Origin: Xanthostigma xanthostigma
Taxonomy: Eukaryota; Arthropoda; Insecta; Raphidioptera; Raphidiidae
Assembly (NCBI GenBank): GCA_963575645.1
Contig: OY754470.1
Location: 9,804,501-9,868,500, forward strand
Direction of reading: 5' to 3'
Length of the DNA: 64,000 nt
Under the pieces are notes generated by a model. The model had not been told where the DNA came from and searched no databases. It worked only from the letters and a program-made list of their open reading frames with translations. Each line of letters starts with the position of its first letter. The stretch's first letter is position 1. Positions 19,066-59,040 of the stretch are shown here, piece after piece. The position numbers were made by a program, and so were the translations under genes.

Positions 19066-19078
19066 TCTTAATATTTAA

Positions 19079-19348
19079 ATCTTTGATTAACGTCTGATTA
19101 GAACTCTTCAATAAATAAAATTATCGACCAATTTTTCAGACAATATTTTAACAAAAAATATAATTAATACAATAACGTTTCAATCCGGATTTGGACCTTC
19201 TTCAGAACTGATCTAAAAAATAATTAATATTTAATTTCTAATTCGTTTTATATAAAATTATTAATTAGTATCAAAATATTGAAACGTCAATGTATTAATT
19301 ATATTTTTTGTAAATATATTGTCTGAAAAATTGGTTGATAATTTTATT
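19079..19348 (-). mobile_element. Palindromic Penelope-like element P, copy 1
   Basis: Starts ATCTTTGATTAACGTCTGAT, then AATAAATAAAATTATCGACC, and ends with the reverse complement of the latter. Flanked by identical 13-bp direct repeats TCTTAATATTTAA (19066-19078, 19349-19361). A hammerhead-like core lies on the minus strand (19177-19205): CTGAAGA, a 5-bp stem GGTCC/GGATT, then GAAAC. Long variable duplications and hammerhead motifs are features of Penelope-like retroelements. No reverse transcriptase is present. Confidence 0.6.
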
Positions 19349-19361
19349 TCTTAATATTTAA

Positions 19362-42309: not shown

Positions 42310-42960
42310 AAAACGAAGTTTTTCGCTTATATCTCGCTCAATTTAAATCAGATCGGTTCGAAACCTGTCTTAAACGAAAGAGGAGAAAATTTTACATAAA
42401 TTTCGTACAACAGAATTCGCCCAATCACTTTTCTTATACACATTTATATAGAAATAAATTCAATCTGATATAACCGATAGCAAACATCTTTCGGTTATCT
42501 CTCTCTGTTGCACGGTATAAAATGGCAATATAATTATTGCGTATGTTCAGTCTTAAAATAAAATTGGTCGATAATTTTATTTATGACAATAAAGAAATTA
42601 AAAGATAGCATTTGTTCAAAAACGGATGCCGTTTCGAATATTTCTGAAATGCAACGCCTTCTAAGTTAACAATTTGAATAAGTAATTATTAGAACTTAAT
42701 ACTTTGACAGAAGCAAACGTCACTTTTGACATTTCTTATCATTCCGACACCAAGGATGAGCGGATTGAAACCAAATTTTGGGAGGATGTTTGATATGCAA
42801 ATATGAAGTGACCTATTGTTTTTGGGGAACATCGGCGCATGCGTAAAAGAATATATCTCTTATAATGTTGTTTTATATAATAATAATATAGTTTTTAAAA
42901 CGGTTTTTACTCTATCTATTTTTACTAGAAATTTTTGTAAATTTTTTGGGGAAAATCGGT
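42310..42960 (+). mobile_element. Interior of a HINE-like/S element leading into the satellite
   Basis: Follows copy A in the same order: CGCTCAATTTAAATCAGATC, TTAAACGAAAGAGGAGAA, AATGCAACGCCTTCTAAGTT, GACACCAAGGATGAGCGG, GGGAGGATGTTTGATATGCA, GGGGAACATCGGCGCATGCG and a second GGGGAAAATCGG. At that second GGGGAAAATCGG the sequence switches into the 120-bp array. Confidence 0.7.
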
Positions 42961-45162
42961 GACGTCACTCTAAATCCAATATGGCGGACTTCTAAAGATG
43001 GCGGACTAATTTTATTATGCTTTCCTACAATATGGGTATCAAATGAAAGGGCTTGCTGCGAATAACTCGAAAAATAAAGTGACGTCACTCTACATCCAAT
43101 ATGGCGGACTTCGAAAGATGGCGGACTAATTTTATTATGTTTTCCTACAATATGGGTATCAAATGAAAGGGCTTGCTGAGAATAACTCGAAAAATAAAGT
43201 GAAATTACTCTAAATCCAATATGGCGGACTTCTAAAGATGGCGGACTAATTTTATTATGCTTTCCAACAATATGGGTATCAAATGAAAGGGCTTGCTGAG
43301 AATAACTAGAAAAATAAAGTGACGTCACTCTAAATCCAATATGGCGGACTTCTAAAGATGGCGGACTAATTTTATTATGCTTTCCTACAATATGGGTATC
43401 AAATGAAAGGGCTTGCTGAGAATAACTCGAAAAATAAAGTTACGTCACTCTAAATCCAATATGGCGGACTTCTAAAGATGGCGGACTAATGTTATTAGGT
43501 TTTCCTACAATATGGGTATCAAATGAAAGGGCTTGCTGAGAATAACTCGAAAAATAAAGTGACATTACTCTAAATCCAATATGGCGGACTTCTAAAGATG
43601 GCGGTCTAATTTTATTATGCTTTCCAACACTATGGGTATCAAATGAAAGGGCTTGCTGAGAATAACTCGAAAAATAAAGTGACGTCACTCTAAATCCAAT
43701 ATGGCGGACTTCTAAAGATGGCGGACTAATTTTATTATGTTTTCCTACAATATGGGTATCAAATGAAAGGGCTTGCTGAGAATAACTCGAAAAATAAAGT
43801 GACATTACGCTAAATCCAATATGGCGGACTTCTAAAGATGGCGGACTAATTTTATTATGCTTTCCAACAATATGGGTATCAAATGAAAGGGCTTGCTGAG
43901 AATAACTCGAAAAATAAAGTGACGTCACTCTAAATCCAATATGGCGGACTTCTAAAAATGGCGGACTAATTTTATTATGTTTTCCTACAATATGGGTATC
44001 AAATGAAAGGGCTTGCTGAGAATAACTCGAAAAATAAAGTGACATTACTCTAAATTCAATATGGCGGACTTCTAAAGATGGCGGACTAATTTTATTATGC
44101 TTTCCTACAATATGGGTATCAAATGAAAGGGCTTGCTGAGAGTAACTCGAAACATAAAGTGACGGCACTCTAAATCCAATATGGCGGACTTCTAAAGAAG
44201 CCGGACTAATTTTATTTTGCTTTCCTACAATATGGGTATCAAATGAAAGGGCTTGCTGAGAATAACTCGAAAAATAAAGTGACGTCACTCTAAATTCAAT
44301 ATGGCGGACTTCTAAAGATGGCGGACTAATTTTATTATGCTTTCCTACAATATGGGTATCAAATGAAAGGGCTTGCTGAGAATAACTCGAAAAATAAAGT
44401 GACGTCACTCTACATCCAATATGGCGGACTTCTAAAGATGGCGGACTAATTTTATTATGTTTTCCTACAACATGGGTATCAAATGAAAGGGCTTGCTGAG
44501 AATAACTCGAAAAATAAAGTGACGTCTCTCTAAATCCAATATGGCGGACTTCTAAAGATGGCGGACTAATTTTATTATGTTTTCCTACAATATGGGTATT
44601 AAATGAAAGGGCTTGCTGAGAATAACTCGAAAAATAAAGTGACATTACTCTAAATCCAATATGGCGGACTTCTAAAGATGGCGGACTAATTTTATTATGC
44701 TTTCCTACAATATGGGTATCAAATGAAAGGGCTTGCTGAGAGTAACTCGAAACATAAAGTGACGTCACTCTAAATCCAATATGGCGGACCTTTAAAAATG
44801 GCGGACTAATTTTATTATGCTTTCCTACAATATGGGTATCAAATGAAAGGGCTTGCTGAGAGTAACTCGAAACATAAAGTGACGTCACTCTAAATCCAAT
44901 ATGGCGGACCTTTAAAAATGGCGGACTAATTTTATTATGCTTTCCTACAATATGGGTATCAAATGAAAGGGCTTGCTGAAAATAACTCGAAACATAAAGT
45001 GACGTCACTCTAAATCCAATATGGCAGAGTTCTAAAGATGGCGGACTAATTTTACTATGCTTACTTACAATATGGGTATCAAATGAAAGGGCTTGCTGAG
45101 AATAACTCGAAAAATAAAGTGACGTCACTCTAAATCCAATATGGCGGACTTCTAAAGATGGT
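42961..45162 (+). repeat. 120-bp satellite array, 18 full units plus a partial
   Basis: Units start at 42961 and every 120 bases to 45121. Each has GACGTCACTC or a variant, AATCCAATATGGCGGAC, AAAGATGGCGGACTAATTTT, TTTCCTACAATATGGGTATC, AAATGAAAGGGCTTGCTGAG and AATAACTCGAAAAATAAAGT. Units are highly similar, with no length drift, so the array is young. Because 120 is divisible by three, frames stay open for hundreds of codons on the minus strand (40-residue periodicity); this is not evidence for a protein. Confidence 0.95.
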
Positions 45163-45174
45163 GACTAAGTTTTT

Positions 45175-50581: not shown

Positions 50582-50867
50582 TTCTTCAATAAATAAAATT
50601 GTCGACCAATTTTTGCAGACAAATATATTAACGAAAAATGTATAAATTCAATACATTTCGGTAAAAATATTTTTTCAATATTTCGATATTAAAAAAACTT
50701 TAAGCGAATTTTATTAAAAACTAATTAGTGATTAATTTTAATATTTTTTAGATCAGTTCTGAAGAAGATCCAAATCCGGACCGAAACGTTAATAAATTGA
50801 ATTTTTATATTTTTTGTTAATATATTTGTCTGAAAAATTGGTTATAATCAGACGTTAATCAAAGATT
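50582..50867 (+). mobile_element. Penelope-like element P, copy 2
   Basis: Runs from TTCTTCAATAAATAAAATTG to TAATCAGACGTTAATCAAAG. Hammerhead-like core at 50759-50787: CTGAAGA, stem GATCC/GGACC with one mismatch, then GAAAC and GTTAAT. Less palindromic than copy 4. Confidence 0.55.
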
Positions 50868-57121: not shown

Positions 57122-57719
57122 AACAATCGTGTCCTACGGTGTGTATATATGAACCTTTACTTTTTCTTATAAACTTACAACGTCTTGTTTAATAACAAGT
57201 TTAATATTTTAGTCGCTTGCCGTAACTGCACTTATAATATATTGATAATTGGACGGCTCACGCTTCTGCGCTAGGCATGAGAAAATATAATAAAATGACG
57301 AAAAGATTGGAGGAAACATATTAAAATTAGAATTCATCTTTTTTGAAATTTGTAGTGAGATAGGTATTGTTTTCACGGAAAGAAAATATATCTACGCGTG
57401 TATTAACTTACACCATTATTGTGTTCAGCTGAAAAAAATTGATAATTTTTTTTCAAATTGTATATCTTTATTTTGCTACTTTTTAATGTTGAATCTATAT
57501 TTATAGAGACTTTGCTCCATCATTGACACCTAGAGAGCTAGTGATTTTATAAATGGTCAAAACAGATATTGATAATATGTCACATAGTATTAAATCAAAT
57601 AAAATTCTCTCAATGCTCAATAAGATACTAAAAATTTAAGTAATATGTATAATATTATTGGAAATAATATTTTGTTTTTTTTTCTTTCTTTTTAAGTACT
57701 TACAATTATATCGACTACT
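57122..57719. other. AT-rich stretch, nothing identified
   Basis: About 600 bases without supported features. Confidence 0.45.
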
Positions 57720-57893
57720 TATTAAAAATTGTTTGTTATTATTTTTTCAATATTTTAGAAACTAATTATTAATTAATTTTTATATTTCTGAGGAAGGTCT
57801 AAATCCAGCCCGAGCCGTTATTGTATTAAATTTACCTATATATTTTTTGTTAATATAATTGTCTAAAAAATTGGTCGATAATTTTATTTTTAA
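57720..57893 (+). mobile_element. Penelope-like element P, copy 3 (truncated)
   Basis: Only the half with CTGAGGAAGGTCTAAATCC (from 57788) to AAAATTGGTCGATAATTTTA is present; the hammerhead-like GAAAC has decayed to GAGCC. Confidence 0.55.
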
Positions 57894-57964
57894 AACAGAG
57901 ATATATACTATGTTAGATAAGCTATCACAGGCTAAGTACGATAGAAACTCTATAACTCGAGCTT

Positions 57965-58135
57965 CAACGGAAATGCTAAACATTTCGGGTTATGGAGTTT
58001 TTGATTTATTAATAATAAAATGTTCAATTTTACAGTTTCTGTACGTCATAGCTTATTGTTTGTTAAACTCTTCAATTTGAAGTAATAAAATCATTGATAA
58101 AGTCTAAACCTTCATAACCCGAAATGTTGAACACT
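57965..58135. repeat. Imperfect inverted repeat between two P copies
   Basis: AACATTTCGGGTTATGGAG (57978) pairs with TTCATAACCCGAAATGTT (58111). It lies between P copies 3 and 4 and may be another part of the same element. Confidence 0.5.
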
Positions 58136-58160
58136 TCGCGAATTTTATATTATAGACTTC

Positions 58161-58442
58161 AATAAATAAAATTATCGACCAATTTTTCAGACAATATATT
58201 AACAAAATATATAATTAATACATTAACGTTTCGATCCGGATTTGGACCTTCTTCAGAACTGATCTAAAAAATATAAAAAATAATTAATATTTTTTTATAT
58301 TTTTTAGATCAGTTCTGAAGAAGGTCTAAATCCAGATCGAAACGTTAATGTATTAATTATATATTTTGTTGATATATTGTCTGAAAAATTGGTCGATAAT
58401 TTTATTTATTGAAGAGTTCTAATCAGACGTTAATCAAAGATT
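58161..58442 (+). mobile_element. Penelope-like element P, copy 4 (best palindrome)
   Basis: AATAAATAAAATTATCGACC to TAATCAGACGTTAATCAAAG plus ATT. Flanked by identical 17-bp direct repeats TTTATATTATAGACTTC (58144-58160, 58443-58459). Two hammerhead-like cores face each other: minus strand 58228-58256 and plus strand 58315-58343. The plus-strand core has CTGAAGA, stem GGTCT/AGATC with loop AAATCC, then GAAAC. Confidence 0.65.
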
Positions 58443-58459
58443 TTTATATTATAGACTTC

Positions 58460-59040
58460 GCGTGAGACTGGAACTTCGAATTAGAGTGTAATGTGTGAAG
58501 TGAAATCATTTTTAGTTCTATTATAGAGTCATTTAGATTTCAACAGAAGAGAGGTTCAACTTTAAAGTTTTTATCGCAATTAAATAAAAAAAAAAAAACT
58601 TAAATATTGTAGCGTTTTTCCCATCCACCATTTTGCTATTATTATATTGGCAAATGGTAGTTCTGTTGTTCTATTGTTAGTTTTGAAAAGAAATTTTTCT
58701 TGTCCGTTACCTAGTTTGTTTAGAAACAAGCTTCGAATACATGTTTTTCCTTGATTAAACTGAAGTCAAGCGAACAAAAAAGAAAACAGTTTTTGAGCTT
58801 CTTTTCGATTAATCTAATTAATTTTTCAGTCGTGAAAGCGTGTTCCTCCCACAACATTGTCAGCTTCAATACGGAAAGTTTGCAGCGTTATTGTTTTCTG
58901 TAGAAAATGTAAAAGGTTTTAAGCATCATTCAACATAAAACAATGAACTTATGAATAATTCTTATTAATATACAGGGTGCGAATATAATTGCCTTCTTTA
59001 TTGTTTATTTTTGAGCGAAATCAACTGTCGATGCATTCAC
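58460..59040. other. AT-rich stretch, nothing identified
   Basis: About 580 bases. ACAGGGTGCGAATATAATTG at 58972 resembles starts of some insect TIR repeats and may be the true left border of the fold-back that follows. Confidence 0.4.

Follow-up and report, generated by a model that had tools for sequence, protein, structure and literature searches.

The window, by which we mean the whole 64,000-nucleotide stretch of Xanthostigma xanthostigma DNA that was analysed, contains towards its right end an insertion, element A, which lacks an open reading frame (ORF) and forms a near-perfect palindrome (58161-58441) with one CTGAAGA-stem-GAAAC core on each strand. Its two arms (58157-58285 and 58286-58414) are 129 nt long, are 96% complementary and meet without a spacer. 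Between the right arm and the second flanking repeat lie about 27 nt more of the element (58415-58441), so that one arm carries a tail and the other does not. We read the arms as copies of the 3' end (pLTR) of a Penelope-like element (PLE), and the features are, in order:

58143..58160, no strand: left target-site duplication TTTTATATTATAGACTTC, identical to 58442-58459; its last four bases may be the element's own
58161..58285, minus strand: tail-less arm, inverted copy of the PLE 3' end (pLTR), from the palindrome and the family alignment
58225..58256, minus strand: the same hammerhead-type core in the inverted arm, from the pattern search
58286..58414, plus strand: tailed arm, copy of the PLE 3' end (pLTR), from the palindrome and the family alignment
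58315..58346, plus strand: minimal hammerhead-type core CTGAAGA-A-GGTCT.AAATCC.AGATC-GAAAC-GTT, from the pattern search; cleavage is predicted after 58346
58415..58441, plus strand: tail, a 3' extension of about 30 nt on one arm only (0 of 50 pairs two-tailed; 12,910 matches to the tail pattern)
58442..58459, no strand: right target-site duplication, same letters as 58143-58160

The first-pass annotation of this DNA had pointed to head-to-head cores, and these are confirmed: CTGAAGAAGGTCTAAATCCAGATCGAAAC on the plus strand (58315-58343) and its inverted equivalent (58228-58256) are the sole two matches in the window, against none in 100 shuffles. The flanking direct repeats that it gave as 17 bp are indeed identical over that length and extend by one more T to 18 bp (58143-58160 and 58442-58459); CTTC, the four bases with which the repeat closes, might just as well belong to element A as its end. 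The pairing that it had drawn between the terminal ATTAACGTC and the ACGTTAAT following GAAA does not exist in that form, because ATTAACGTC reads as the tail sequence GACGTTAAT in reverse complement and thus belongs to the other strand than ACGTTAAT. As the two cores are on opposite strands, an RNA made from either strand of element A holds one sense core together with its complement. The core lies 68 nt from the inner end and 97 nt from the outer end.

The 3' box of element A occurs seven times in the window at no more than three mismatches (0.01 expected), which adds two more pairs (B and C), one longer single copy (D) and one fragment (E):

19079..19348, minus strand: copy B, a head-to-head pair with the tail at the left and a 13-bp duplication TCTTAATATTTAA (19066-19078 / 19349-19361)
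42556..42582, plus strand: copy E, a very short fragment, by eye possibly a tiny head-to-head pair
50583..50867, plus strand: copy C, a head-to-head pair with the tail at the right and the 3' box of the tailed arm deleted
57600..57670, plus strand: copy D, decayed C-terminus of a PLE ORF, a repeated sequence with the frame NSLNAQ*DTKNLSNMYNI
57671..57889, plus strand: copy D, pLTR without a tail, no inverted arm seen

A target duplication was looked for around copy C (50583..50867) and was not found. The frame of copy D resembles the ORF end of the longer family copies described below. Between copy D and element A lies a further inverted repeat (57970-58137; 38-nt arms, 82%), which does not match the arm query. 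At 42912-45164 on the minus strand, two adjacent open frames of 175 and 574 aa carry a tandem repeat of about 40 aa, LYFSSYSQQALSFDTHIVGKHNKISPPSLEVRHIGFRV, and are probably a minisatellite rather than a gene.

Searching the 623-Mb assembly (28 contigs) at no more than three mismatches gave 14,820 matches to the 3' box, 12,910 to the tail and 13,046 to the core, while the reversed controls gave none; in viral contigs, neither the 3' box nor the core had a match (0 and 0). A search with the whole element produced 1215 candidates, of which 40 were scored, and the 34 places taken from it, read with short flanks, are together with element A all head-to-head pairs (35/35). Since a whole-element query favours paired copies, the last 82 nt were used on their own for a second search, which yielded 43 matches (99 candidates, 40 of them scored); we read the 20 best places not seen before and left out the remaining 19. 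An inverted partner lies nearby in 16 of these 20 copies, among them the complex L060 and the partial L062, and was not found in the other four (L053, L056, L058 and L059). Among the listed 100 exact 3' boxes on contig C1, neighbours within 4 kb are head-to-head nine times, in the same direction three times and never tail-to-tail. A constant length of about 290 bp was considered and rejected: it describes the first 34 copies only, for which the query had favoured such copies, and when copies were sampled through the last 82 nt at the 3' end, 14 of the 15 pairs measured were 126-429 nt long, the fifteenth (L060, 61 nt) being probably mis-assigned.

Target duplications were counted on 57 elements (35 + 20 + B and C), from which seven were dropped because the tail pattern (L038) or an inverted arm within 460 nt (L036, L053, L056, L058, L059 and L062) was not found, leaving 50 pairs. 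A duplication with a score of at least 8 is present in 36/50 pairs compared to 79/2450 controls with swapped flanks, and at a score of at least 10 the figures are 34/50 and 9/2450; the suggestion of retroposition with target duplications is supported. Exactly 13 bp are duplicated in 17 of the 36 cases at a score of at least 8, with a median of 13.5, although the method takes the longest fit and so tends to overstate the length. The duplications, mostly 13-16 bp and accompanied by a tail at one end only, are not the short fixed ones typical of transposases acting on terminal inverted repeats. The remaining 14 of the 50 pairs show no duplication at a score of at least 8, some of them through mis-assigned ends (L015 has 13 bp on a separate reading). 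The duplicated sequences (n=34) have an AT content of 82% compared to 68% in the flanks.

The sequence upstream of copy D is also repeated in the genome (1112 candidates, 40 scored), and three such longer copies were read (L101, L102 and L103). In all three, the end of a PLE endonuclease ORF is found directly 5' of the element's pLTR. Upstream of its pLTR, L102 encodes YIGQTKRALKTRIREHQNN, split between two frames, and after it residues that align with the endonuclease of a further PLE of the genome (BLASTP, 15/34 identities, E 3e-8 in a single comparison); a 32-aa piece gives Pfam GIY-YIG at E 0.004, which is short of the curated cut-off, and a 60-aa piece gives nothing in Pfam. This piece with the GIY-YIG motif is seen in L102 alone (1/3); L101 and L103 retain only the last part of the endonuclease ORF and copy D its decayed end. 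L103 is itself a head-to-head pair whose tailed arm extends into the ORF. All three longer copies are broken, and no intact copy with the element's pLTR was found among them. RVT_1 was seen in other PLE families of the genome only, and the link of the short family to PLEs rests on the endonuclease end.

PLEs are common in this genome. A GIY-YIG profile search gave 37 matches over the cut-off (150 of 521 candidates scored), and a search with a PLE endonuclease protein gave 150 matches (best 150 of 1919 candidates scored). Among the latter best 150, the 33 neighbouring endonuclease pairs less than 6 kb apart comprise 22 head-to-head, 11 tandem and no tail-to-tail arrangements. At G000:C7:24097379-24113133, six endonuclease matches in the same direction follow one another with a period of 3,097 bp, five of them with an 823-aa open frame, and form a tandem array. 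Seven full-size pairs, one from the profile search and six from the protein search, were chosen by hand and read at both outer ends. Their arms are 99.4-100% identical, and exact duplications of 12, 13, 13, 12, 12, 13 and 15 bp flank them, in an uncontrolled search that accepted only ends separated by 15 nt or more; when this spacing rule was lifted, the same duplication was recovered in 5/6 pairs covered, and L096/L097 gave a chance 12-mer elsewhere. In six of the pairs, GAAACGTT lies 67, 68, 66, 71, 68 and 64 nt from the inner end and 102, 99, 100, 123 (with a poly-A run), 102 and 103 nt from the outer end; the seventh, taken from a variant core, has 51 nt and 85 nt. By Pfam, RVT_1 and GIY-YIG are both present in ORFs of L078 and L084, and L100 has RVT_1 in an 843-aa ORF with no GIY-YIG at E 0.01. 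The Penelope-like link proposed by the first-pass annotation is supported, in that the longer copies contain a PLE endonuclease ORF end and the full-size PLEs of the same genome share the build and the core type.

One PLE, at C4:51.80 Mb, sits by eye inside a copy of the short element. Its core, CTGAGGA-A-GGTCT.AATAA.AGACC-GAAAC-GTT, is of three PLE families the nearest to that of the element A family (alignment score 52 compared to 29 and 31; 300 shuffles have a mean of 20 and a maximum of 48). It is the PLE with the 843-aa ORF named above (L100), in which Pfam gives RVT_1 and no GIY-YIG at E 0.01, although the end of this ORF is a 53% match to the endonuclease of L068. A proposed homology of the L068 pLTR to that of the short family was dropped as unproven.

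The core of element A is of the PLE kind, and its role in insertion is putative. According to the parts of the reviews consulted, PLE hammerheads are minimal type I forms in which helix III is absent (PMC6155905, PMC7761336), so the permuted or long-range stem III invoked at first pass is not needed; what survives of the hammerhead reading is a hammerhead-type core of the PLE sort. In the family, CTGANGA and GAAA are intact in 55/70 arms and the triplet is GUU in 63/70, whilst stem I has 3 bp in 48/70 arms, 4 bp in 15 and 0-1 bp in 7. Pairing of stem II is kept despite change between the two cores of element A, as had been noted, but this does not extend to a family trend: 317/350 cells (70 arms) are paired compared to a mean of 318.5 when the 3' strands are dealt randomly, and 1690/2000 shuffles reach the observed value, so that no covariation beyond shuffles was found in these arms. 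Folding at minimum energy does not give the core a hammerhead shape, and an RNA that spans the full palindrome sets the core opposite its complementary copy. These three points speak against hammerhead activity. The Rfam covariance models that had been suggested as a check find no hammerhead in the window at the gathering threshold and none in 57700-58600 at E<=10, where the best matches are hairpin families that fit the palindrome; this silence does not discriminate, since five GIY-YIG loci with such predicted cores also have no hammerhead match. Cores of this kind (CTGANGA, a stem of at least 4 bp, GAAAC) occur eight times in 20 GIY-YIG loci against 0.033 expected, or at six distinct places because L077 and L079 overlap. 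In the part of PMC11167929 available, the hammerhead of an Anolis PLE is described as cleaving only with its protein, and cleavage as dispensable for insertion in vitro.

Taking these observations together, we suggest, with a probability of about 0.8, that in element A a PLE family has left a short insertion without an ORF, consisting of two pLTR 3' ends with a minimal hammerhead-type core joined head to head, and that it was made by two-ended priming. Two-ended target priming predicts just such an arrangement, with two different 3' ends at fixed positions, one per arm and both facing outward, within a single target duplication, and the protein of the Anolis PLE is reported to cut and extend both strands in vitro (PMC11167929, in part). 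We envisage that a PLE protein would cut AT-rich DNA with a stagger of about 13 nt, giving rise to the duplications seen. Both exposed DNA ends would then prime reverse transcription of the element RNA, one at an outer start, which would produce the tail, and the other at an inner start about 30 nt upstream; both of these ends are seen in the copies. The cDNAs would stop at varying points and presumably be joined to one another head to head, leaving the junctions that we read. Both arms would derive from the same source RNA or locus, as their shared rare variants indicate, or may have exchanged sequence later.

The junctions bear on this scheme in two ways. The point at which the arms meet varies copy by copy, and the arms often begin at different points; as the junctions differ between copies, the pairs were made separately and were not inherited as one palindrome. 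Rare variants common to both arms of one element number 9, compared to a mean of 1.21 and a maximum of 6 in 1000 random pairings, and mean arm identity is 0.960 within a copy as against 0.953 between copies (0/2000 permutations). A subfamily marker agrees between the arms in 32/35 copies and disagrees in 3, and in only 11/35 does a left arm match its own partner best, ties included. The similarity within copies fits one source RNA or locus; the signal is modest and gene conversion between the arms is also possible. Of the 70 arm starts in 35 copies, two are at +31/+32 beside the predicted cleavage site, six are at +21/+22 beside GAAAC and most are 5' of the core. Neither the start positions nor the junction microhomology had a control, and we claim neither a pile-up at the cleavage site nor its absence.

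The element family itself fits a known kind of PLE, and the interesting part is the rule that a pair has one tail. No two-tailed pair occurs among the 50 tested pairs of the short family, all of which had been picked or recognised by a tail, so that tail-less pairs could not turn up among them. Two samples were not selected in this way. The full-size pairs, chosen by hand and not for the tail, have it on exactly one arm in 7/7 cases, and on C1, among the 100 listed exact 3' boxes, each of the 8 head-to-head pairs under 2.5 kb carries one exact tail and no more, in a count that took exact tails only and that a diverged second tail would escape. The ninth head-to-head pair on C1, with its arms 3.5 kb apart, has two tails. 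We did not meet a strict statement of this rule in the portions covered of PMC3846280, PMC7761336, PMC11167929 and PMC6155905; that scope excludes the two main papers on hammerhead PLEs, and we claim no priority.

The tail is also what separates two-ended priming from its closest rival, in which the first cDNA, or else an antisense RNA, serves as its own primer and is copied in return. Such fold-back self-priming has been proposed, and is preferred, for Penelope in a bdelloid rotifer (PMC3846280, as far as this source was available), and it would account for the head-to-head orientation, for the near identity of arms in full-size pairs (99.4-100%) and for the rare variants common to both arms. 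However, copying back would duplicate the tail, which is single in all 7 full-size pairs and doubled in none of the 50 short ones, and the arms often begin at different points. The tail evidence tests the antisense-RNA form less directly; taken as a whole, we regard fold-back as unlikely. Movement of a circular RNA cut by its hammerhead, as in a retrozyme or satellite, would explain a hammerhead-type core in thousands of copies, and PLEs and Terminons have been named as likely helpers of animal retrozymes (in the part of PMC7761336 covered), but there are no tandem dimers among the copies read, whose outer ends fall at the two 3' starts rather than at the predicted cleavage site, which makes this route very improbable. 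That element A is a palindromic non-autonomous DNA transposon (a MITE or foldback element) moved by a transposase is scarcely credible: long inverted repeats and a high copy number would suit it, whereas the asymmetric tail, the duplications of about 13 bp, the junctions that change from copy to copy, the solo copies and the endonuclease ORF end upstream would not.

If two-ended priming is adopted, the absence of pairs with both starts outer suggests a coupling of the two priming events. A tentative extension, to which we give rather less than even odds, is that one RNA serves for both, coupled and in a set order, such that the first DNA end would take the outer start and the second would be forced about 30 nt upstream. 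The hammerhead, conserved at about 67 and about 100 nt from the starts, might then be part of an RNA structure held by the PLE protein and not the cutter that defines the ends.

Much of this anatomy is already known. In the parts of the accounts available to us, the GIY-YIG PLEs Penelope of Adineta vaga (PMC3846280) and Poseidon of Anolis (PMC11167929) likewise have a pLTR, inverted head-to-head pLTRs, target duplications and a preference for AT-rich sites. Their pLTR region holds a hammerhead, reverse transcription has two starts separated by the length of a tail, and one inverted pLTR may carry a 3' tail of 30-40 nt, the inverted pLTR with a tail on one having been described earlier (PMC3846280). 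Unlike in these PLEs, the short copies here have no ORF, its end being held by copy D and L101-L103; the duplication is about 13 bp compared to 8, 9 or 10 bp or none in A. vaga Penelope (PMC3846280); and the data here comprise more than 14,000 3' ends, with 0/50 tested pairs two-tailed. The minimal type I hammerheads of PLEs (Cervera and de la Pena 2014; Lunse et al. 2017, as conveyed by the parts of reviews seen) share the CTGANGA-stem II-GAAAC order, the lack of helix III and a dispersal in thousands, and differ in that stem I here is mostly 3-4 bp, stem II has no covariation beyond shuffles and the core is a prediction. Animal non-LTR retrozymes (PMC7761336, in part) also carry a type I hammerhead core in short, non-coding repeats; the copies here are not tandem, their ends are PLE reverse transcription ends, and they have longer relatives with a PLE ORF end.

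As presented in the portions covered of PMC3846280, PMC7761336 and PMC11167929, the mode of PLE insertion, the origin of the inverted pairs and the purpose of the hammerhead are open questions, and the anatomy of element A gives clues to the insertion of these little-understood elements. With thousands of short insertions whose ends can be read in one genome, rules such as one tail per pair, a cut staggered by about 13 bp and the spacing between core and start become measurable, and they can be used to tell two-ended priming from fold-back copying.

Some copies hold other DNA. At L060 (G000:C12:6759881-6765461), arms of the family enclose a palindrome of other DNA that looks like captured and mirrored sequence. 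A 1.5-kb insert between the arms of L045 has no long ORF. At L046 (2938-3282), about 140 bp of unrelated, apparently captured DNA separates the arms of a head-to-head pair, for which the 12-bp duplication GTACACAATAAT can be made out by eye. L070 (2440-2510) holds a very short family pair about 0.7 kb from a PLE endonuclease fragment, again with a duplication read by eye, here of 13 bp (TATATAAAAAGAA).
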